From contig CABXYF010000003.1 in the NCBI GenBank assembly GCA_902516435.1, positions 1-64,000 of the forward strand: a stretch of 64,000 nucleotides of DNA, in the 5' to 3' direction. The notes under the pieces were generated by a model. That model saw nothing but the letters and a program-made list of their open reading frames with translations, ran no database searches and had not been told where the DNA came from. The first letter of the stretch is position 1, and every line of letters starts with the position of its first letter. Below are positions 13,683-23,330 of this stretch, piece by piece. The stretch is from an uncultured Pelagibacteraceae bacterium. GTDB taxonomy: Bacteria; Pseudomonadota; Alphaproteobacteria; Pelagibacterales; Pelagibacteraceae. Both the position numbers and the translations under genes were made by a program.

Positions 13683-13758
13683 GCCCTTGTAGCTCAGTTG
13701 GTAGAGCAATTGATTTGTAATCAATAGGTCCGCGGTTCGAATCCGTGCGGGGGCACCA
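13683..13758 (+). tRNA. trnT: tRNA-Thr (anticodon UGU), integration target
   Basis: An intact 76-nt cloverleaf with acceptor GCCCTTG / CGGGGGC (G-T pairs tolerated), anticodon TGT at 13716-13718, T-arm GGTTCGAATCC and encoded CCA. The anticodon arm is a perfect 7-3-7 palindrome (ATTGATT TGT AATCAAT, 13709-13725). The segment from the 5' side of the anticodon arm to two bases past CCA is repeated at 15250-15304, and a slightly shorter part at 18518-18565. This gene is therefore the attachment site of the following island. Confidence 0.98.
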
Positions 13759-13760
13759 TC
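13706..13760 (+). repeat. att-like repeat 1 (3' part of intact tRNA-Thr)
   Basis: This 55-bp segment, from just before the anticodon stem to two bases past the CCA end, is identical to 15250-15304. Its inner 48 bp (13712-13759) are identical to 18518-18565. The identity ends sharply on both sides, as expected for att sites made by a tyrosine recombinase acting in a tRNA anticodon arm. Confidence 0.9.
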
Positions 13761-13799: not shown

Positions 13800-13837
13800 T
13801 TCTGACGACAATAAGTGTTGTCAGATTGTTGTCAAAT
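13800..13837 (+). repeat. Element A left 11-mer repeats
   Basis: Two tandem 11-mers, TGTTGTCAGAT (13816-13826) and TGTTGTCAAAT (13827-13837), differ by one base. A related 11-mer lies in inverted orientation at 13800-13810 (TTCTGACGACA), separated by a 5-bp spacer. They lie 40-80 bp after the att copy. The layout resembles arm-type binding sites of tyrosine integrases; that role is inferred. Confidence 0.7.
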
Positions 13838-13856
13838 CAAGTGGTCGTATATAAGA

Positions 13857-14981
13857 TTAATATGTGCAAGAAATATATAGGGTACTTTCCTCTAATATTT
13901 TTAATAACTTGTCACTTTTTAATTTACTTCGATTAGATCTTGACGGATCAATATCATTTGCACCTAGAAAATTTAATGCTGCAGATGATTTAATTCCAAA
14001 ATTAATACCTTCAGACATTTCTTTACCAAGACCTGAAACAGCAATTGCAATTAACTCTCCGCCCTCACCTACTATTGGACCGCCACTGTTACCGTGATTT
14101 ATTGCTGCATCTATTTGAAGTTCATTTGAATTATCCTGAACACCTTTAAGTGAACTAATTATTCCAGAGGATATTTTCAAATCATCACTTAAACCTTTTC
14201 CAAAAGGGTAACCCGCAACATAAATCTTTTGCAGTTTTTTGGGGTTGTAGTTTGAAAAATTAATAAATGACTTTGATCTGACATTTGCTTTTAAAAGAGC
14301 TAGATCTAATGTTTTATCTGTTGCAATTAATTGTGTGTCGTATTCTTTATTGTTGTAATTAATACTTAAACTTTTACATCCATCTACTTCGTGATTATTT
14401 GTTAATAAATTTCCACGATTATTTATAAAAAAAGCTGTACCACTTGACCCTTCAGAAGTTTCTGCTGTATCACTTAAAACTCCTTCGCATTTAAAAGGTA
14501 TTTCACTTTGCATAGCCAATTCACCTGCTTTACCATATGCTGTTGTTGTCGTTCTGAACATTTTAACCTGAATATCAAATGTCCCCTCTGCTAAGTTTAC
14601 AAAAATCTTATATTCTTCTAAAACTCCTGGAGTCTCTTTTCCAATTCTTTCTCCAGATATATACCCTGCTGAGTAAGTGGTTATTCCATAAATTTGTTGA
14701 GTAATTTTATTAGTTTTTATTTCTTTACCGGCAATCTCTGAAAGAATTTCTGTAGTTTTTTTTGCATTGTTTGAGTCTCTTAATAAAGTTTTAGTAATCG
14801 TACCTGCGTTCGTATCTATTGTTAAAACGTGATCAAGATATTTACCTGTGTGTCTCTTATTGTTGTTATCGTCAAAACTTGAATACTTAGGATCATAACA
14901 TCTATTAAATTCTATAAATTCAGCAAAACTTATGTTGCAACACAACAAAACAAAAATCACAATGCCTAAAAATTTTTTCAT
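13857..14981 (-). CDS. Secreted trypsin-like serine protease
   Basis: This 374-aa protein begins with a signal peptide (MKKFLGIVIFVLLCCNISFA, cleavage predicted before E), so it is exported. The chymotrypsin-fold triad can be read: His in LLTNNHEVDGC, Asp in DKTLDLALLK and Ser in the strongly conserved GNSGGPIVG. About 150 N-terminal residues before the protease domain have no recognised fold and may be a recognition or inhibitory part. There is no PDZ domain, unlike DegP. Its ATG overlaps the stop of the upstream small membrane gene (ATGA). It is cargo of element A; the substrate is unknown. Confidence 0.85.
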   Translation of the reverse strand: MKKFLGIVIFVLLCCNISFAEFIEFNRCYDPKYSSFDDNNNKRHTGKYLDHVLTIDTNAGTITKTLLRDSNNAKKTTEILSEIAGKEIKTNKITQQIYGITTYSAGYISGERIGKETPGVLEEYKIFVNLAEGTFDIQVKMFRTTTTAYGKAGELAMQSEIPFKCEGVLSDTAETSEGSSGTAFFINNRGNLLTNNHEVDGCKSLSINYNNKEYDTQLIATDKTLDLALLKANVRSKSFINFSNYNPKKLQKIYVAGYPFGKGLSDDLKISSGIISSLKGVQDNSNELQIDAAINHGNSGGPIVGEGGELIAIAVSGLGKEMSEGINFGIKSSAALNFLGANDIDPSRSNRSKLKSDKLLKILEESTLYISCTY

Positions 14982-15160
14982 TTTTTAAATAAAGCTCTTA
15001 CTGCAAATATGAATGCTAAAATTGTTGCTCCTGGCAAAACAAAACCCTGTCTTTGCAAACCCGTTATTGATCCTGAATTAAAATACATATCTAAATTTAT
15101 AAGCATTAAAATTGCGAATAGTATTAATGGAATAAATTTTGAATCTAAAAGTTTAATCAT
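14978..15160 (-). CDS. Small two-span membrane protein, element A
   Basis: Taking the ATG at 15160 gives 60 aa (MIKLLDSKFIPLILFAILML...). Two hydrophobic helices (about residues 8-26 and 38-56) are followed by a basic end (RALFKK). A longer version from a TTG at 15202 would code its first residues from the element's terminal 11-mer repeats, so the ATG is preferred. The stop overlaps the protease start by four bases, suggesting coupled translation and a joint role. No family was recognised. Confidence 0.6.
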   Translation of the reverse strand: MIKLLDSKFIPLILFAILMLINLDMYFNSGSITGLQRQGFVLPGATILAFIFAVRALFKK

Positions 15161-15177
15161 TTGTGAAATAATATCAT

Positions 15178-15230
15178 TGTTGTCAGATTGTTGCCAACTC
15201 AAAACTATTTTATGATTATTGTTGCAAACA
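15178..15230 (+). repeat. Element A right 11-mer repeats
   Basis: TGTTGTCAGAT (15178-15188) is identical to the first left-end 11-mer and is followed in tandem by TGTTGCCAACT (15189-15199). A degenerate copy, TGTTGCAAACA, lies at 15220-15230. They are in the same orientation as the left-end pair, about 50 bp before the second tRNA-Thr fragment. Matching repeats at both ends support element A as a real unit. Confidence 0.7.
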
Positions 15231-15249: not shown

Positions 15250-15304
15250 GCAATTGATTTGTAATCAATAGGTCCGCGGTTCGAATCCGTGCGGGGGCAC
15301 CATC
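15250..15304 (+). repeat. att-like repeat 2 (tRNA-Thr 3' fragment)
   Basis: This is a 55-bp exact copy of 13706-13760, covering the anticodon arm, variable loop, T-arm, acceptor 3' strand and CCA of tRNA-Thr. The D-arm and 5' acceptor strand are missing, so it cannot be a functional tRNA. It marks the junction between element A and element B. Confidence 0.92.
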
Positions 15305-15354
15305 ACTCAACTAAATCAACACTATTTTTTTTTTGCAAAAGTTTAATCTTATCC

Positions 15355-15416
15355 GTTAAAACACATTGACTGTGTTAGGAGTGTGTTAAGAGTGTGTTTC
15401 AGTCAAGTAGTCTTAT
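15355..15416 (+). repeat. Element B left 11-mer repeats and conserved trailer
   Basis: Three tandem 11-mers are TGTGTTAGGAG (15371-15381), TGTGTTAAGAG (15382-15392) and TGTGTTTCAGT (15393-15403). An inverted relative, GTTAAAACACA, lies at 15355-15365 after a 5-bp spacer, the same geometry as element A. Directly after the repeats comes TCAAGTAGTCTTAT (15403-15416), which matches TCAAGTGGTCGTAT at 13837-13850 in element A at 12 of 14 positions. Confidence 0.7.
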
Positions 15417-15419
15417 CAA

Positions 15420-15761
15420 CTAAATAACGTCTTTATCTATCCAATAATCTAGTTCAGACTTGAAAGTGATATCTCTTTTTTTCAAAAAATTTATAAACTT
15501 TTCTTTTCTTTCCTTTTTTATATTTTTAAGAAAGAGAAGTATTTGTTCATAAGTTAATGATTTAAGATTTTGATTTTCAATTTCTACTTCATCATTAAAA
15601 TCAATACCATATTGAGGCATCCCCTTTTTGGGACAGATACTCTCAATATATACAATACTATCAGGGTATTGTTGCAAGGTATAATAATAAGTAGCTATTT
15701 GATTTTCAAATCTATCAATCGCATCTTCTCTAAACTCTTTTTTAAGAATTGTATCATTCAT
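15420..15761 (-). CDS. Hypothetical protein, element B
   Basis: A 113-aa soluble protein with many charged and aromatic residues, rich in Lys, Asp and Ile and with no signal peptide or membrane helix. It has an ATG start at 15761 and is the last gene of the element B minus-strand set, ending just inside the 11-mer repeats. No motif or family was recognised. Confidence 0.5.
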   Translation of the reverse strand: MNDTILKKEFREDAIDRFENQIATYYYTLQQYPDSIVYIESICPKKGMPQYGIDFNDEVEIENQNLKSLTYEQILLFLKNIKKERKEKFINFLKKRDITFKSELDYWIDKDVI

Positions 15762-15853
15762 AGTTTGAGTGTTGCTGAAGTTATACGTTAAAGAACTTTA
15801 ACAATTATAAATATAAATATTAAAAGTGGCAAAAGTTAGATCAAAATCTATTT

Positions 15854-16483
15854 TTAATCGACCTTGATTTCTTTCATAATGATCATAAAATTTCTTAAAA
15901 AATTAGCAAAAGCTTGATTAAAATTTTTAAATTTTTTTGAAAATCCTTTTGGCATTTGACCTCTATTTTCTACATACATTGTAACAATACTTTGCATTCC
16001 TTCAGTGAAAGTATTGAATACCTTTGTGTCAGAAGTTATGACTTTTTTTGAGATTTGAAATGAAGCAAGAATAAGTTGTTCAATAATTTTGTTATCTTCT
16101 TCTTTATTTAGAGCAATATGAGCTACTAATACATTTTGAATAGCCTCGCCTGATTCTTTCCAAAACTTATCTAAATCTATTTTTTTTGAAACTAATCCAA
16201 GCATAAAAGATCTAACTGTTATTATGAAAACCATCAATGAAAGCATTTCAGTTTTGTTTAAGCCTTGTTTTTTTAATTGAGTATTCAACAGAGGGAGCTT
16301 GTCCATTTCCTTAAGAGTCTTTAAAGCAATATCAACTACAATAAGGTCTAAATCTATTTTTAAACCTAAAGATTTTCCGTTATTTTTTTCAGCTATATTT
16401 TTAATGTGAAGAGCATAAATTTGAATTAATTCATCATCTGTATATTCTTTTTTTTTCTTTTTAAATATATCAAATAAACCCAT
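15854..16483 (-). CDS. Hypothetical helical protein, element B
   Basis: The ATG at 16483 gives 209 aa beginning MGLFDIFKKKKKEYTDDEL. This start is preferred to one 36 codons upstream because the longer version overlaps the neighbouring small gene and has an uncharacteristic N-terminus. The MGLFD(I/L)F-K-rich start is common in proteins that touch the membrane surface. The rest is predicted helical, with hydrophobic stretches (about 100-120) that are weak for a membrane span. Function unknown. Confidence 0.55.
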   Translation of the reverse strand: MGLFDIFKKKKKEYTDDELIQIYALHIKNIAEKNNGKSLGLKIDLDLIVVDIALKTLKEMDKLPLLNTQLKKQGLNKTEMLSLMVFIITVRSFMLGLVSKKIDLDKFWKESGEAIQNVLVAHIALNKEEDNKIIEQLILASFQISKKVITSDTKVFNTFTEGMQSIVTMYVENRGQMPKGFSKKFKNFNQAFANFLRNFMIIMKEIKVD

Positions 16484-16523
16484 AATAAATTCTAACCCAG
16501 AACCACGATCCCTAAAAGTTTTT

Positions 16524-16703
16524 TCATTTATGTTTATTTCTAGTTTCGTCGTTAATTTTTCTTCCGTATTCTCTGATTTGCATACGTTCAATTGCTTCTT
16601 CTTCTTGTTTAGCCTTTTTTTTTCTTTGGTTAGAATAATAAATTGGCATTATGATTGATAAACCAACGATGATAATTGCTAATATAATTTGCCAAGTTTC
16701 CAT
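16524..16703 (-). CDS. Small single-span membrane protein, element B
   Basis: A 59-aa reading frame starts METWQIILAIIIVGLSIIMP. One N-terminal membrane helix (residues 4-24) is followed by a charged, coiled-coil-like tail (NQRKKKAKQEEEAIERMQIR). It fits exactly in the gap between the 209-aa and 119-aa genes, 3 bp from the latter's stop. Its position in an otherwise packed gene set and sensible composition support it as real; no homologue was recognised. Confidence 0.55.
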   Translation of the reverse strand: METWQIILAIIIVGLSIIMPIYYSNQRKKKAKQEEEAIERMQIREYGRKINDETRNKHK

Positions 16704-16706
16704 TTT

Positions 16707-17066
16707 TTAAAATACGTTAGTTTCATTTTTCTCAATAGCTAGTTCCTCAGAAGAAAATTCTTTGTCAAAATTCATAGCACTTTGTTTGAAATAACCTGTC
16801 CATACATCTCTACAATATTTATTCATCTTTAATAATGCATCATTTTCTTTTGGTGTAAAATCTTCACCCGCTTTTTTTGATTTATCTATTTGTTCTGTTG
16901 AATAAAGTACTTTTGATAAACTATCAAAAATTTCATCATCAATATCTTCATGAAGTGCAAATCTTTTGGCTTGTACCATGTGAATAAAATTATAATTTTG
17001 GATTATGCATCCATCCATCTCAGAATTAATTTTGCGATTAATTTTTTTTTTAATCCACTCAAACAT
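16707..17066 (-). CDS. Hypothetical protein, element B
   Basis: A 119-aa protein starting MFEWIKKKINRKINSEMDG. It is soluble and helical with many acidic and basic residues, and has no recognised motif. It is transcribed with the other element B genes. The 63 bp upstream hold an in-frame membrane-like peptide without a usual start codon, so no gene is called there. Confidence 0.5.
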   Translation of the reverse strand: MFEWIKKKINRKINSEMDGCIIQNYNFIHMVQAKRFALHEDIDDEIFDSLSKVLYSTEQIDKSKKAGEDFTPKENDALLKMNKYCRDVWTGYFKQSAMNFDKEFSSEELAIEKNETNVF

Positions 17067-17129
17067 TATTTATTTGAAATGTACCATATAAAAGAAGCCA
17101 ATTCGATTGCTATGATTAGTTCAATCAGA

Positions 17130-17432
17130 TTAAACTCCGTGTTTTTTAGCAGCTTGCATAAATTTTTTAACTTTATCAAATAAATTATTTGCTTCCTGGG
17201 GCATAAATTCAGGGCTAACACCACCCCTTCCTGATAATTTAAGAGCTTCTAATGCGTAGTGATTATATTTTGTTGAGCTAGTTTTATCTTTAAATTTTAG
17301 AGACAATTCTTCAAATTTTTCAATACCTCTTCTTTTTTTTTTAAAATATCTTCTTAGAATTCTTAGTATTCCTTCTTTATTTTTTCTTTCATTTATAATT
17401 TTTTTATTTATAAAATTCTCTTGCTCTTTCAC
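17130..17432 (-). CDS. Small basic protein, element B
   Basis: A 100-aa protein with a GTG start at 17432, overlapping the end of the nuclease-like gene by 29 bp. The N-terminal half is very rich in Lys and Arg (RILRRYFKKKRRGIEKFEEL), which suits nucleic-acid or acidic-partner binding. The overlap implies translational coupling with the larger protein. No family was recognised. Confidence 0.5.
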   Translation of the reverse strand: MKEQENFINKKIINERKNKEGILRILRRYFKKKRRGIEKFEELSLKFKDKTSSTKYNHYALEALKLSGRGGVSPEFMPQEANNLFDKVKKFMQAAKKHGV

Positions 17433-18423
17433 CTTTTTTTTCTTTAAGAGATTTATTTAAATATTTAACCTTATTCTCAAATACTTTTTGATTATCAGTT
17501 AAAATTTTTTCACCTTTTTTTAAATAATCATCTATTGCTTTGTCTAAATCTTCCATTTCTGATTTGCAGTAATTCTCTATCTTATATTCATTAGCTAAAT
17601 TTCCACCAAACACAAAACCTAGAGTTCCTCCAACAATAGTTCCAAATGGTGGAAGTATGAAAGATCCTAATTTAGCGCCTACGCCTGCTCCTGCAAATTT
17701 TCCGACACTATCGATTGCTACATTTTTCAATGCTGTCTCCATATCAGTTTTTCCTCCTGCCCAATTCATAAAGTTTTTTCCAATAGAAATGATTGAGACT
17801 ATCCCAAGTATTTCTGGAATTGCTGTTCCAAATAAATTATTGTCTTCAAAAACTTCAACGGCAGCGTCTGTGCTTTCTTTAACAAGGTTTTGAGTCTGAT
17901 CGTGACTAAATCCACTGTTTATTATCAAATTAGCTTTATCAGGGTATTTCTCAATAAATTTTTCATAAGCATCACTATTTGATATAACTTTTATATTTGG
18001 ATACTTTTCGAAATGTTTCTCAATAATTTCTATTCCATCTCCCTGAGTTTTAACTTGAAACTTTTCGTTATTAATAACCAAATCGTGACCAGATTGATTA
18101 GCTGAAGTTGGAAATTCTACCTCAGCACCTCTTTTTTGAAAATCTAAAGCTACAACTCTCTCAAATGTATAACCAGTATATGTGCTATGAAGTCCAGCTA
18201 ATGACTCAGAGGATTTTTCTGCCCTATCTGCAATTTCTTGTTTTCCAAATTTTAGTATATTTGATAAATCTCCTTTTCTAACAAAATCAACACCATCAAC
18301 AACTCTGGGATCTACTCTTAAAATATCATACACAAGATCTCCTGCATAAATAGATGCAAAAGTTCCGGTTTCTTTTAATTTAACTCGAGCAATTTTTTTT
18401 TTTAATTGTTCAGTTAAATTCAT
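17404..18423 (-). CDS. Putative PD-(D/E)xK-like nuclease fused to a glycine-zipper segment
   Basis: A 339-aa protein. Residues 82-130 look like a restriction-endonuclease-fold core: a helix with E88 (FERVVALDFQKRGAEVEFP), then D114 in SGHDLVINNEKFQVKT with Q123-x-K125, a QxK variant known from Mrr-like enzymes. Residues 241-278 form a Gly-rich hydrophobic hairpin (GAGVGAKLGSFILPPFGTIV and onward), a glycine-zipper type membrane segment. A charged coiled-coil tail follows. Nuclease plus membrane segment would suit a defence effector or secreted toxin. It is the first gene of element B; the fold assignment is by motif reading only. Confidence 0.5.
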   Translation of the reverse strand: MNLTEQLKKKIARVKLKETGTFASIYAGDLVYDILRVDPRVVDGVDFVRKGDLSNILKFGKQEIADRAEKSSESLAGLHSTYTGYTFERVVALDFQKRGAEVEFPTSANQSGHDLVINNEKFQVKTQGDGIEIIEKHFEKYPNIKVISNSDAYEKFIEKYPDKANLIINSGFSHDQTQNLVKESTDAAVEVFEDNNLFGTAIPEILGIVSIISIGKNFMNWAGGKTDMETALKNVAIDSVGKFAGAGVGAKLGSFILPPFGTIVGGTLGFVFGGNLANEYKIENYCKSEMEDLDKAIDDYLKKGEKILTDNQKVFENKVKYLNKSLKEKKGERAREFYK

Positions 18424-18439
18424 AAAAAAAGTTTATCAC

Positions 18440-18461
18440 CGTGTTCATAGTGTGTATAGAT
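18440..18461 (+). repeat. Element B right 11-mer repeats
   Basis: Two 11-mers in tandem, CGTGTTCATAG and TGTGTATAGAT, each match the left-end consensus TGTGTTAAGAG at 8 of 11 positions and have the same direct orientation. They end 56 bp before the third tRNA-Thr fragment, close to the spacing seen at the right end of element A. Confidence 0.5.
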
Positions 18462-18517
18462 TTGAAATAACTTTCAATTAACGTTGATAGTATTTATCTT
18501 TTTTAATTTAGACTCTC

Positions 18518-18565
18518 GATTTGTAATCAATAGGTCCGCGGTTCGAATCCGTGCGGGGGCACCAT
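18518..18565 (+). repeat. att-like repeat 3 (tRNA-Thr 3' fragment)
   Basis: A 48-bp exact copy of 13712-13759. The left half of the anticodon-arm palindrome has changed (CTCGATT instead of ATTGATT). This is what a crossover inside the anticodon loop would leave if the left half-site came from the incoming element. It lies in a 284-bp stretch without genes (18424-18707) that otherwise holds only the 11-mer repeats on either side. Confidence 0.9.
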
Positions 18566-18664: not shown

Positions 18665-18686
18665 TGTAGTGAATATGTAGTGAATT
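18665..18686 (+). repeat. Third pair of tandem 11-mers after tRNA-Thr fragment 3
   Basis: TGTAGTGAATA (18665-18675) and TGTAGTGAATT (18676-18686) are tandem with one mismatch and begin 99 bp after the third tRNA-Thr fragment. Period, copy number and position match the left ends of elements A and B, but the sequence is different. No inverted copy or matching right-end pair was found. They are probably the left arm of an older third element that carried the restriction-modification genes. Confidence 0.6.
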
Positions 18687-18707: not shown

Positions 18708-21182
18708 TTAGCTATTTTTAAATTCATCAATTGTAATTTTTGTATCATACAAGCCTACTTCTTTTGGGCTATATTTTGTATAACCGCCCGCATAATATAA
18801 GGATGCGTTTTCATATCTTTTAAATGCAAATACAGCTGAGTTCATTAAAGATGAATTAAATACTCCTAAGGTTAGTAGTAATTCAAAATCTTTGATTGAA
18901 AGGCCAGTAACCTTTTTAAACAAACCAGGCTCTAACTGTGTAATAACATCTTTTAGAGTTTGTTCTCTATAATCAGTTAAATACATAAACACAGGAATTC
19001 TTGTTGATAATTTTTGTAGTTTTTCTTGTATTTTTTTTCTTAGACTTTTTTGTTCTTTTTCTGCTTCAGATAGCTCCTTTTTTGTTTTACTATCAATTTT
19101 GTCATCTCTACTATCATTTTTAATTTTTTTTATTTTTTCTGATCGATTAATTATTTTTTCAATATCTGAGTTTAAAGATCTAAAACCTTCTACATTCATT
19201 AGTGCATCAATAGCTTTCTGATTATCCATTAATTTTTTAAGAGTTATATCATCTACATTTACTAGTTTAGCACTCTCAAATTTTTTAGCTAACTGTGACC
19301 CTGACGTACCAACCATACTAAAATCTAGAACTTCTTGAGCGTTTATTTTTTTCATTGAAGTTCCATCAAAACAAAGTATCGGTAAGAATTTAATAAATTC
19401 CTCTATTTTTTCCTCTGGATTGTTTTCATTAATATTAAGTCTACAGCTATAATCTGTTACAAGTTTTAAAGCTCTGTTTGGGGCAAAGTCAAAAAGATAA
19501 CACTCTTGTTTAAGAATTGTTTCTTCATTAATATCATCTTTTAAAGTCCACGGTGACTGAACTCTAAAAGCAGATTGGAAATAAGTTTCAGGAGATTTTG
19601 TATTTCTCAACATGAAAATTCCACTCCAAGGTTTTATAGTGACACCAGTAGTAAGTTTTCCACAAGATAAAGTAATTGTTTTTGTTTCAAGAGGATCGGA
19701 CATCCTATCTCTTACTGGTTTTAAAGCCTTCACACCTATGCCTGCTTTTTTTCCAGCACAAACTATAATTTCAAAACTTTGATAAAATGAATTTTGTTTT
19801 TTTTTTAATAAATTGTGCATAGCCCAACATGATGAAACGGATGGTAAAAACCAAAAAGTGTGAGTTAAAATATTTAACAGGTTAGAGTCTAAAAATGGAA
19901 GTGCTGGTTTTGCTATGCCAAGTTTTAAATTATCATAAATATTTTCAAATCCAGTTCCTCTAATTAAATCTAACCATTTTTGAACCTCATTTTCATATTT
20001 GAATTTAGCATCATTTTCCTCACCCTCAGATTTAAAGAAAATATTTAGATCAAATTCATCATATTCTCCTTTTTCAGTTATTTTTATAATTGCATCTGGT
20101 AATTGGTAAGTCATCATAACTAGTCTTGGTAAAGATTTGTATGGGTTGTTTTTCCCAGTCCAATTTTCTTTTGCATCTTGTTCATCGGTATAAGTCCAAT
20201 TATAAATTTGTTCTTCAATAAATTCACCTGATTCAATAGCTTTAAATGGAGTTCCACTTAAATATAAATAATGGTTTGTTTTTAAGGGTGAGATGTCCTC
20301 ACTCCAATCATCAATACCTGTTCCGATTGAGTCGTTCATTTCAGTTTTACTCTCATTTTCATATAGCTCTTTAGCGGTGTCCCTCCATGAGCCATAATGG
20401 TATTCATCTAAAACAATACAATCCCAATTAATCTTATGAGCCCATCTATTTTTAATCTTGATCCCTCCAGAAGAAGTTTTGCCAAGAAAATCTTGAAACG
20501 ATGCAAAACAAACAAAGGGTTTTGATTTATTTATTTCAGAATATTTTACACCATCTTTTGAAATAAATTGCCAATCATTAAAATCTTTATGAGTCATTAA
20601 ATCTTCATTCCATGAATTTTCAACAGCTGGCTTAAAAGTAAGAATTAAAATTTTTTTCCAATTCATCTTTTGAGAAAGTTTATAGGTCGTAAAAGTTTTT
20701 CCAAATCTCATTTTACAATTCCATAAAAAATGAGGAACTTTTTTTTCAATATTTCTGTAATTTCTAAAATATGTCGAAGTTTTTTTTATTGCTTCTTTTT
20801 GTTCAGGTCGCAAACCAAAACTCACTGTTCTATTAAAATCTATTGTTGAGTTGTTTTTAATAGATATTATTGCTGATTTAAGTTGATTAATTGTACATTT
20901 AAACCACTCACCACCAACATTTTCTATGCCATTTAATTTGAGAATTCTATGTACGTCATTATCTTTGAAAAAAGTTCCATCACTCTTAACAGCACTTTCT
21001 ATATATAAAATCTCATACTTTAAAATACCCGAGGGTCCTTTCGTTGGGAAATGTTCTTTCATTCTTTCTTCAACAGATCGTGTAGTATAACCAATTTTTA
21101 TTAAACTTTTGTATTCGGGTTTTTTTTCTGTATATGCATAGATTTTAGGAGATATATCTGGCCTTGTTGGAAAATTATCCAT
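18708..21182 (-). CDS. GIY-YIG-like nuclease fused to DEAD/DEAH helicase, restriction-type protein
   Basis: Taking the ATG at 21182 gives 824 aa. The N-terminus has a T5orf172/MUG113-type GIY-YIG domain (KIYAYTEKK, then LIKIGYTTRSVEERM, then GGEWFKC). A superfamily 2 helicase follows, with motif I NCKMRFGKT (about residues 155-163) and motif II DEYH (259-262); later SF2 motifs (YLSGTPFKA, FRVQSP) are visible. A coiled-coil-like region lies near residue 690. Its start overlaps the methylase stop (TGATG). With two methylase-like genes upstream it is probably the ATP-dependent cleavage component of a restriction system. Confidence 0.8.
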   Translation of the reverse strand: MDNFPTRPDISPKIYAYTEKKPEYKSLIKIGYTTRSVEERMKEHFPTKGPSGILKYEILYIESAVKSDGTFFKDNDVHRILKLNGIENVGGEWFKCTINQLKSAIISIKNNSTIDFNRTVSFGLRPEQKEAIKKTSTYFRNYRNIEKKVPHFLWNCKMRFGKTFTTYKLSQKMNWKKILILTFKPAVENSWNEDLMTHKDFNDWQFISKDGVKYSEINKSKPFVCFASFQDFLGKTSSGGIKIKNRWAHKINWDCIVLDEYHYGSWRDTAKELYENESKTEMNDSIGTGIDDWSEDISPLKTNHYLYLSGTPFKAIESGEFIEEQIYNWTYTDEQDAKENWTGKNNPYKSLPRLVMMTYQLPDAIIKITEKGEYDEFDLNIFFKSEGEENDAKFKYENEVQKWLDLIRGTGFENIYDNLKLGIAKPALPFLDSNLLNILTHTFWFLPSVSSCWAMHNLLKKKQNSFYQSFEIIVCAGKKAGIGVKALKPVRDRMSDPLETKTITLSCGKLTTGVTIKPWSGIFMLRNTKSPETYFQSAFRVQSPWTLKDDINEETILKQECYLFDFAPNRALKLVTDYSCRLNINENNPEEKIEEFIKFLPILCFDGTSMKKINAQEVLDFSMVGTSGSQLAKKFESAKLVNVDDITLKKLMDNQKAIDALMNVEGFRSLNSDIEKIINRSEKIKKIKNDSRDDKIDSKTKKELSEAEKEQKSLRKKIQEKLQKLSTRIPVFMYLTDYREQTLKDVITQLEPGLFKKVTGLSIKDFELLLTLGVFNSSLMNSAVFAFKRYENASLYYAGGYTKYSPKEVGLYDTKITIDEFKNS

Positions 21183-22684
21183 CACATTTCTTTAATAAGA
21201 TTTTCTATATGCTCTATTTCTTTTTCAGATAACTTGTATTTTTTGTATAATTTTTTGTCGTTCCAATCTTGATCAAAATTTTCTTGAGGTACAAATTGGA
21301 AGCAACTTTTTGTAATGTTCATTGATGAAAGTGTTAAAAGGACAAGAAATCTTACAAACTTAGTTTTAAAGAAATTTACACAATTCTCAGCTTGAATTTT
21401 TTTTTCAAATGAATTTAAAACTAAATAAGTTTCTGATGTTACTTGATTAATTCCACTTATTTTTACTTTTGTTATTACATTGGATTTTCCATCTTTAGAA
21501 TTATTTACACCTCCCCTATCTGGGTTAACTTTTCCAATATAAACATTATACTTATTTATTAAATTTGCATTATTAGTTACTAAATCTTTTTTAATATACC
21601 CAATACCTCCACTTGATATAAGTTGAGCTGAGTCATTAAAAAAAGAATTTTTTCCTCTTACAGAAGTGTCAATGCCATAGGGTTTTCTTGATAGAACAAT
21701 TTCGTTAAAAAACTTTTGATTTTCATTAAATTTTCTAACAATACCCAATCCAATATTATCTCTTATGAATATTTCATTTTCATTAAGTTTTCTGTTTAGT
21801 GAATCTTTATTGTTACTATTTATAGAAGTAAACTTACAAGTACCTTTATAATTTTTATCCCACAAAAAATAGCAAACACCTCCTGCAATATCAACACCTG
21901 GAAAACAATCGCGACTTTTTGGATAATCAATTAATTCTTTCAACCTTTGATCGTTTAGCATGTTTTTTCTAAAATCATCCAACCCCTTACCGCCTGCAAA
22001 CCATCTTGAGGGTATTATCATAGACAAATAATTTGGATTAAGACGCTTTGCCTGTTCTACAAACAATTGAAATATTGGTTTTGCACTTATGCCGTGACCT
22101 CCATCAGTCATCTGATAAGGAGGGTTTCCAATAATAACATCAAATTTCATTTTAAATAATTTTTCTAAATTATTTTCATGTATAAATGAATATGCATAAT
22201 TTTCCAATTGCTCATCTCTCTCAAATATTTCTTTATTAACACCACAAAAATTACATAAATTTTTTGAATTCCATGAATGATTGTATTTATAAAATTTTAT
22301 ATTTCCCTCAATTGAATTAAAATTAGAAATTGAATATTTTCCATTAGCATATTTTGAGCAATAAACAGTTCTTCTACTTAACAATGCGGTTAATTCTGTA
22401 ATAGCCAATCCAAAGACTTGATTTTTTAAGATATGATCTATTCTTCTATCAAGTTTTGGTATTTTTTTTGAGAGTCCTTTAATCAGTCTTTTTGTTATTT
22501 CTCTTAAAAATACTCCTGATTTTGAAAAAGGATCCAAAAATTTAATATTTTCATTTTGCCAAATTTCTTCAGGAAGTTTATCCAGCATATCTGAGACTAT
22601 TTTAGGTGGGGTAAAAACCTCATCACTACTAAGGTTTGCTATACACGTTAAAATATCGGGATTATGTATCTTCTCTAGTTTCAT
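21182..22684 (-). CDS. Eco57I-like N6-adenine DNA methyltransferase
   Basis: A 500-aa protein with a SAM-binding motif I variant (FLDPFSKSGVFL, about residues 49-60) and the catalytic motif IV IIGNPPYQ (NPPY at 187-190), typical of N6-adenine methylases of the Eco57I/type I M group. A CxxC pair (CNFC, residues 144-147) may bind zinc. The C-terminal half should hold target recognition. It overlaps the upstream 222-aa gene by 23 bp and the helicase gene by 1 bp, so the three form one operon. Confidence 0.85.
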   Translation of the reverse strand: MKLEKIHNPDILTCIANLSSDEVFTPPKIVSDMLDKLPEEIWQNENIKFLDPFSKSGVFLREITKRLIKGLSKKIPKLDRRIDHILKNQVFGLAITELTALLSRRTVYCSKYANGKYSISNFNSIEGNIKFYKYNHSWNSKNLCNFCGVNKEIFERDEQLENYAYSFIHENNLEKLFKMKFDVIIGNPPYQMTDGGHGISAKPIFQLFVEQAKRLNPNYLSMIIPSRWFAGGKGLDDFRKNMLNDQRLKELIDYPKSRDCFPGVDIAGGVCYFLWDKNYKGTCKFTSINSNNKDSLNRKLNENEIFIRDNIGLGIVRKFNENQKFFNEIVLSRKPYGIDTSVRGKNSFFNDSAQLISSGGIGYIKKDLVTNNANLINKYNVYIGKVNPDRGGVNNSKDGKSNVITKVKISGINQVTSETYLVLNSFEKKIQAENCVNFFKTKFVRFLVLLTLSSMNITKSCFQFVPQENFDQDWNDKKLYKKYKLSEKEIEHIENLIKEM

Positions 22685-23330
22685 ATAGTTTTAGAAAATT
22701 AATTAATGGATATTCTTTTATAGGATTTGGTATTATCGCTTCCTCTCCTAAGTCTGAGAATAACGTTCCTTCCTCAAATGGAGAATAATCGACTAAATTT
22801 TTATACTCAAAATCTCTTCTTTTAATTTTATCATCAATTAAAGACCATTCAGATAAAATTAAAGGCTTTTTTTTATTTGGAGAAATGAATGTCAAAGCAT
22901 CTGCGCAAACTATGTTTTTTTCTAAAATAAATTTTATATTTTTAAGAAGTTCTATATTTTCACTTTTAAAAAGATTTTTATAATTATTTTTAAAAATATT
23001 AAGAAGTCTTTTTTGAGTTATGTTTACATTGTCTTGAATTATATCAACTCCATACAATGATCCGATCAGTAATACTGAAAATTTATCATATGAGTATTGA
23101 TTTTTTTTATATAAATTATTTAGAATTGCTAATTTTCTTATTAATATTTCAGACAAAAAGTTTCCATTTCCACAAGCAGGTTCTAAAAATCTAGAATCTA
23201 TTCTATCTGTTTGGTCTTTTACCAAATTTAACATATCATTAACTTCTTTTTCTGAAGTGTAAACTTCACCAAAACTACTTACTCTCTCTTTAGAGATTAT
23301 TTGTTTTGATTTAGTAATTTTTTCTTCCAT
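22662..23330 (-). CDS. DNA methyltransferase-like subunit lacking the catalytic NPPY motif
   Basis: A 222-aa protein. SAM-binding motif I is clear (FLEPACGNGNFLSEIL, about residues 48-63), preceded by the family start SKERVSSFGEVYTS. There is no (D/N)PP(Y/F) motif and the protein ends near FSDLGEEAIIPNPIKEYPLI. I recognise this as a recurring short partner protein of Eco57I-type methylases with helicase-nucleases. It probably acts with the 500-aa protein as a two-part modification enzyme. First gene of the operon. Confidence 0.75.
   Translation of the reverse strand: MEEKITKSKQIISKERVSSFGEVYTSEKEVNDMLNLVKDQTDRIDSRFLEPACGNGNFLSEILIRKLAILNNLYKKNQYSYDKFSVLLIGSLYGVDIIQDNVNITQKRLLNIFKNNYKNLFKSENIELLKNIKFILEKNIVCADALTFISPNKKKPLILSEWSLIDDKIKRRDFEYKNLVDYSPFEEGTLFSDLGEEAIIPNPIKEYPLINFLKLYETREDT

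Follow-up and report, generated by a model that had tools for sequence, protein, structure and literature searches.

This study concerns a 1.54 kb element, here called element A, which is inserted at a tRNA-Thr(TGT) gene in a stretch of 64,000 nucleotides (positions 1 to 64,000 of contig CABXYF010000003.1, assembly GCA_902516435.1, from an uncultured Pelagibacteraceae bacterium), referred to below in its full length as the window. The only product encoded by element A is a trypsin-like protease; a recombinase is absent, and tandem 11-mers of the same sequence lie inward of the tRNA core copies at both of its ends. We regard it as probable that these 11-mers are the arm-type sites of a lambda-type tyrosine integrase, that element A is a non-autonomous, attP-bearing cassette mobilised in trans by the integrase of a satellite, and that the arm sites set which integrase works on it. 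An earlier description, referred to as the sequence-only reading, had already proposed an arm-type layout and a recombinase substrate that lacks its own enzyme, and this proposal gains support, at the level of sequence comparison, from a cassette family, a fixed spacing and a matching satellite integrase. Two findings go beyond it, namely that element A is one member of a large family in which several arm codes occur, and that the elements B and C downstream share its architecture with other 11-mers. The coordinates are collected in Table 1.

Table 1. Features of element A and of the adjoining elements B and C in the window.
Feature	Position	Strand	Basis
tRNA-Thr(TGT) (regenerated attachment site), whose 3' part serves as attL core of element A	13683..13758	+	identity with right copy
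Inverted 11-mer TGTCGTCAGAA; followed by a 5-bp spacer (ATAAG) and the left direct pair	13800..13810	-	
Left arm site 1, TGTTGTCAGAT	13816..13826	+	
Left arm site 2, TGTTGTCAAAT	13827..13837	+	
Element A cargo: trypsin-like protease, 374 amino acids, signal-like N-terminus, antisense to tRNA	13857..14981	-	PF13365, E 5.2e-24
Right arm site 1, TGTTGTCAGAT	15178..15188	+	
Right arm site 2, TGTTGCCAACT	15189..15199	+	
Right tRNA-Thr 3'-end copy, attR of element A and left end of element B	15250..15304	+	
Element B, 3.26 kb, at the same site; lacks an integrase and has another arm code (TGTGTTaaGAG)	15305..18565		
Element B left arms: inverted AACACA (15360-15365), 5-bp spacer, then TGTGTTAGGAG, TGTGTTAAGAG, TGTGTTTCAGT	15360..15403	+	
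Element B right arms CGTGTTCATAG TGTGTATAGAT	18440..18461	+	
Third tRNA-Thr 3'-end copy, closing element B	18518..18565	+	
Element C left arms TGTAGTGAATA TGTAGTGAATT	18665..18686	+	

The two ends of element A share a core equal to the host attB, here the 3' end of the tRNA, with an identity of 55 bp (13706-13760 and 15250-15304). With att sites at both ends and no recombination genes, element A has the make-up of a cis-mobilisable element (CIME) and not that of an autonomous integrative element, which encodes its own integrase, and the arm-type repeats of the same sequence on either side of the core are those of a lambda-type integrase substrate. The tandem 11-mers had been placed by the sequence-only reading at 13816-13837 and 15178-15199, which proved exact, and the inverted relative 5 bp outside the left pair is present as described. 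A single 11-mer with two mismatches allowed gives 69 matches against 76 expected in the AT-rich window, which is the chance level; since the single 11-mer is not rare, the signal lies in the tandem pairing and in the agreement of both ends. The joint score of the agreeing tandem pairs is 29, as opposed to a maximum of 25 in Markov shuffles (0/3000 reach 29) and of 26 at real placements elsewhere in the window (0/2397). The 22-mer pair with at most one mismatch turned up in 3 of 297 same-family genomes, in each case within a tRNA-Thr mini-element, and the reversed-pattern control gave no match in these genomes; random occurrence across genomes, which would have spoken against arm sites, was thus not observed. 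A degenerate third copy on the right (TGTTGCAAACA, near 15220) had also been suggested, but it was rejected as an arm site because its sequence does not follow the arm code: it is a conserved stretch whose TGTTGC is retained in cassettes with a different arm code (L172, L173).

Element A is one of a family of cassettes, 0.6-3.3 kb in size, that are integrated at tRNA-Thr(TGT) in Pelagibacteraceae (SAR11) and carry one or two genes each. A scan of the GTDB contigs baited with the 11-mer yielded about 20 further Pelagibacteraceae loci, nearly all at tRNA-Thr, and with a sequence model of the left end, matches were obtained in 45 of 399 same-genus genomes, E being < 1e-18 in 36 of these. The 11-mers are present at both ends of the other copies and at fixed distances from the tRNA core (+89 and -93 bp), the left arms beginning 89 bp past the core start in nearly all type-A1 elements and the right arms lying 93 bp before the right core in the relatives. 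Many relatives have three direct left copies where element A has two, and the inverted site with its 5-bp spacer recurs in most cassettes as well as in the satellites L132 and L013 described below. While the ends are conserved at fixed spacing, the cargo is diverse. No integrase is found among the open reading frames (ORFs) of the small elements catalogued. Of 104 cargo ORFs, which form 60 clusters with pilin-like proteins and trypsin-like proteases as the largest, all but one (103) run antisense to the tRNA. Other cargo matches MrcB_N+HNH, SAD_SRA+HNH, Mrr, NucS, T5orf172, DUF4268 and polysaccharide lyase, and some also matches candidate defence families in PADLOC.

Several observations concern the cargo itself. 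The commonest type, the pilin-like proteins (L006/L163, L095, L179, L184, L186, L198-L200), has a nearly constant N-terminus (FTLIELLVVVAIIGILAAVGVVAY) and variable bodies, with 25 ORFs in one cluster and several codes. Many cargo proteins with no other relationship, in cassettes of different arm codes, start with a near-identical signal peptide, MKKLLGIVVLGLLLSGNAYA (L015, L036, L058, L060, L068, L093, L121, L172, L176, L180, L196), as if secreted cargo were swapped behind a constant leader. The protease cargoes of L057 and L124 are 98.7% identical in their C-terminal parts and differ in their N-terminal parts, which suggests domain swapping inside cassettes.

The 11-mer occurs as several sequence codes, which agree between the left and right ends with a mean of 10.17 of 11 matches, compared with 9.34 (standard deviation 0.12) after permutation (0/20000 permutations). 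The A2 code TGTTGCAG and the A3 code TGTGGACA sit on the same scaffold as A1, and codes B-F occur in neighbouring elements. One cassette, L179, carries the A3 code on the left and a TGTTGCC code on the right, and is possibly a code-switching intermediate or a dead chimera.

An integrase flanked by the same 11-mer at both ends, for which the sequence-only reading had recommended a search, was found in another Pelagibacteraceae genome. Genome AH-326-M17 (G297; L132) contains a 6.9 kb element in the same tRNA-Thr, with A1 11-mer pairs at both ends (TGTTGTCATAG TGTTGTCGGAT and TGTTGTCAGAT TGTTGTCAAAA) and the 5-bp-spaced inverted site. It encodes a DUF5906 primase and, at the end opposite the tRNA-Thr, an integrase of 326 amino acids, so that the same core and the same arm sequence occur together with an integrase that has a predicted N-terminal domain of the arm-binding type. 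On a related IMG/VR contig, L013, an integrase 74% identical to that of L132 is found at the same tRNA core in the same layout with TGCGGACA, alongside a terminase small subunit and an AAA protein, and the right pair of cassette L201 is similar to the L013 arms. Another integrase, L135, is 96% identical to L132 and adjoins the same tRNA-Thr core, and its arms TGTTGCAGTAG TGTTGCAGAGG have the code TGTTGCAG of the A2 cassettes. Between the integrases of L132 and L135, 11 of 287 residues are different: 7 of these fall within residues 1-37 and none within 151-287 (Fisher p 2.5e-4 for residues 1-30). The first 37 residues correspond to the predicted arm-binding domain. The model of the L013 homologue places strands at residues 2-5, 11-17 and 20-27 and a helix at 30-46 in the N-terminal region, and this beta-beta-beta-alpha arrangement is the known topology of the arm-binding domains of lambda Int and Tn916. 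Lambda Int is both the nearest solved sequence and the top fold match, and no row of the VIA list aligns the N-terminal domain by itself. A satellite at another tRNA (G093, tRNA-Asn-like site) has 11-mer pairs of its own; across 300 genomes they occur at exactly two places, which lie 6.2 kb apart and one of which is beside the integrase. Cassettes using this code were absent from the 300 genomes, where only the satellite's own two ends carry it.

The site occurs both empty and filled, since in about 31 of 201 genomes (hand count) the tRNA-Thr is joined directly to nadK. Pairwise comparison of cassettes and host flanks shows recent horizontal spread. The cargoes of L055 and L175 are 97.3% identical compared with 77.6% for their host flanks, and their left-arm codes are different; the cargoes of L006 and L179 are 98.8% identical and their left arms are different, and L124 and L068 have flanks that are 96.6% identical and different cassettes. 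Across 153 A1 pairs, end identity is independent of host identity (r = -0.004).

The mechanism that we propose starts from a cassette in which the tRNA-Thr core sites and a full arm set (on the left one inverted and two or three direct sites, on the right two direct sites) enclose one cargo transcript without an integrase. The enzyme would be supplied by a satellite belonging to another lineage, of which the 6.9 kb element of AH-326-M17 is an example; the N-terminal domain of this integrase would read the same 11-mer at the same tRNA core, and the integrase, when present, would bring about excision and integration of the cassette in trans. Each cassette would then be allotted to an integrase lineage by its arm sequence, acting as a code, and cassettes would change code by an exchange of ends, while passage between cells might involve phage or satellite particles, or transformation. 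An arm pair is found directly upstream of the integrase gene in satellites, and the right pair of cassettes directly precedes the cargo start codon; as the cargo start corresponds in position to the start of the satellite integrase gene, the cassette may also borrow the integrase promoter. We are evenly divided on the wider proposition of a distributed system, in which an 11-bp arm code would divide many integrase-less one- or two-gene cassettes at one chromosomal site among parallel mobility networks that are insulated from one another. A satellite integrase with a recoded N-terminal hairpin would serve each network in trans, and cassettes would switch network by end exchange.

A number of points weigh against mobilisation in trans. 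Binding by the integrase, excision and integration in trans, and passage between cells are steps that we infer, and the cassettes may instead have spread through homologous recombination between flanks. Of about eight codes, only two or three could be paired with a cognate satellite integrase, and no partner satellite with a geometry identical to that of the cassettes was found; the satellite arms lie farther out (left +124 as opposed to +89; right -104/-93 as opposed to -93/-82). At the loci from the baited GTDB scan, the 11-mer at one end is present by selection, although the core distances (+89/-93 bp), the opposite end, the inverted site with its 5-bp spacer and the flank conservation are free of it. 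Finally, the window's own genome (79% complete) holds a single tyrosine recombinase of 325 amino acids, which resembles host XerC/D, and one of about that length occurs in each of five further genomes. This last point could also be taken to mean that host XerC/D, or an unrelated phage integrase, uses the tRNA core only and that the 11-mers are incidental, which we find scarcely credible, as incidental repeats would neither agree between the ends nor keep fixed distances.

The most serious competitor, which we nevertheless judge improbable, is that the cassettes arose from satellites by deletion and are now dead or almost so, as CIME-like relics with leftover ends that spread only by homologous recombination (rlmB, tRNA, nadK) or by hitch-hiking with a neighbour. 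The lack of an integrase, the tandem array of A, B and C at one site, the tRNA repeats that permit homologous exchange and the mismatched codes of the chimeric L179 would all fit such relics. However, the cassette spacing is unlike that of known satellites yet fixed within the family, code agreement and conserved ends around unrelated cargo require continued selection or a recent common origin, and the ends vary independently of host identity. It is considerably less probable still that the 11-mers are operators or iterons for cargo transcription and not recombination sites: the position of the right pair just upstream of the cargo start codon, like that of the satellite pair upstream of the integrase gene, suits an operator, but the far 3' end of the cargo, next to the other att copy, has matching pairs as well, the code follows changes in the integrase N-terminus, and the same cargo is found with different codes. 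A dual role of the 11-mers in regulation as operators and in recombination is possible.

When IMG/VR was searched for an integrase with the A1 code, the pattern TGTTGTCARATTGTTGYCAA led to a single phage contig, L010, which looks non-marine and whose integrase, flanked by TGTTGTCAAAT, lies at a different tRNA; integrase-proximal patterns gave chance matches or nothing. Most viral contigs with the tRNA-Thr core have neither an integrase nor tandem 11-mers, the integrase being confined to L013, and perhaps those with the core only represent phage tRNA genes. Named phages yielded nothing beyond matches to tRNA-Thr or integrases of about 36% identity. In gut Firmicutes, and in other bacteria too, a similar TGTTGTCA pair often sits close to an integrase from a different branch. 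L010 and the Firmicutes loci L018, L019, L025, L037 and L085 share a very similar TGTTGTCAAAT pair with an 11-bp period near different-branch integrases, and the arm motif may recur independently. Distant SAR11 integrases (about 28-33% identical) were also observed near tmRNA or tRNA-Met (L137, L144-L146, L148-L150), some of them adjoining pairs with an 11-bp period.

Among known systems, classical CIMEs derive from integrative and conjugative elements and move in cis after accretion. SAR11 cassettes are likewise att-flanked, free of an integrase and in tandem with other elements at one tRNA, but they form a large family of 0.6-3.3 kb with the arm codes of satellite integrases; no conjugation genes were met among the family hits, where tandem arrays were seen and no systematic search for such genes was made. 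The partner satellites resemble marine virion-encapsidated integrative mobile elements (VEIMEs), phage satellites and tycheposons (integrase and DUF5906 primase in L132; terminase small subunit and AAA protein in L013), whereas the cassettes have no replication, packaging or integrase gene. Tycheposons span 4-200 kb (PMC10872708), a range below which most SAR11 cassettes fall, and have a tyrosine recombinase, which element A at 1.54 kb does not. With integrons, in which integrase-less cassette arrays are known (PMC11389934), including clusters of attC sites lacking integron-integrases (CALINs), the SAR11 cassettes share a content of one or two genes and, as proposed here, movement by an integrase encoded elsewhere, but the SAR11 site appears to be a duplex tRNA core with arms and not attC, the integrase is of the lambda Int type, and several parallel codes exist at one site. 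Additive flexible genomic islands with small tRNA-repeat cassettes are described for the marine Actinomarinales (PMC7771536) and Methylophilaceae (PMC10872708), with islands of 330 bp-42 kb in one account, in passages that name no recombinase-recognition architecture, whereas SAR11 cassettes have a full coded arm set and an identified integrase-encoding partner. No description of integrase-less cassettes with arm codes matched to satellite integrases was found in the open-access literature searched, which did not include the original VEIME and tycheposon papers.

SAR11 are the most abundant bacteria of the ocean, with streamlined genomes and a variable gene content whose movement is poorly explained. 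Gene turnover without prophages would be explained by a minimal cassette of less than 2 kb for which two ends and a borrowed integrase are enough. Among the genes carried are those for restriction nucleases, candidate defence functions and variable pilin-like proteins. In addition, the natural pair of 96%-identical integrases with different codes offers a direct test of DNA choice by the N-terminal domain, which would be useful for orthogonal integration tools.

Downstream of element A, element B has a relative with conserved ends in L093. A right att copy or att remnant of element C was sought by eye in the window up to nadK (about 24768) and was not found. Past the third att copy, the region 18708-23330 resembles a split type IIG restriction-methyltransferase system in PADLOC, consisting of a T5orf172/helicase part and two methyltransferase parts.
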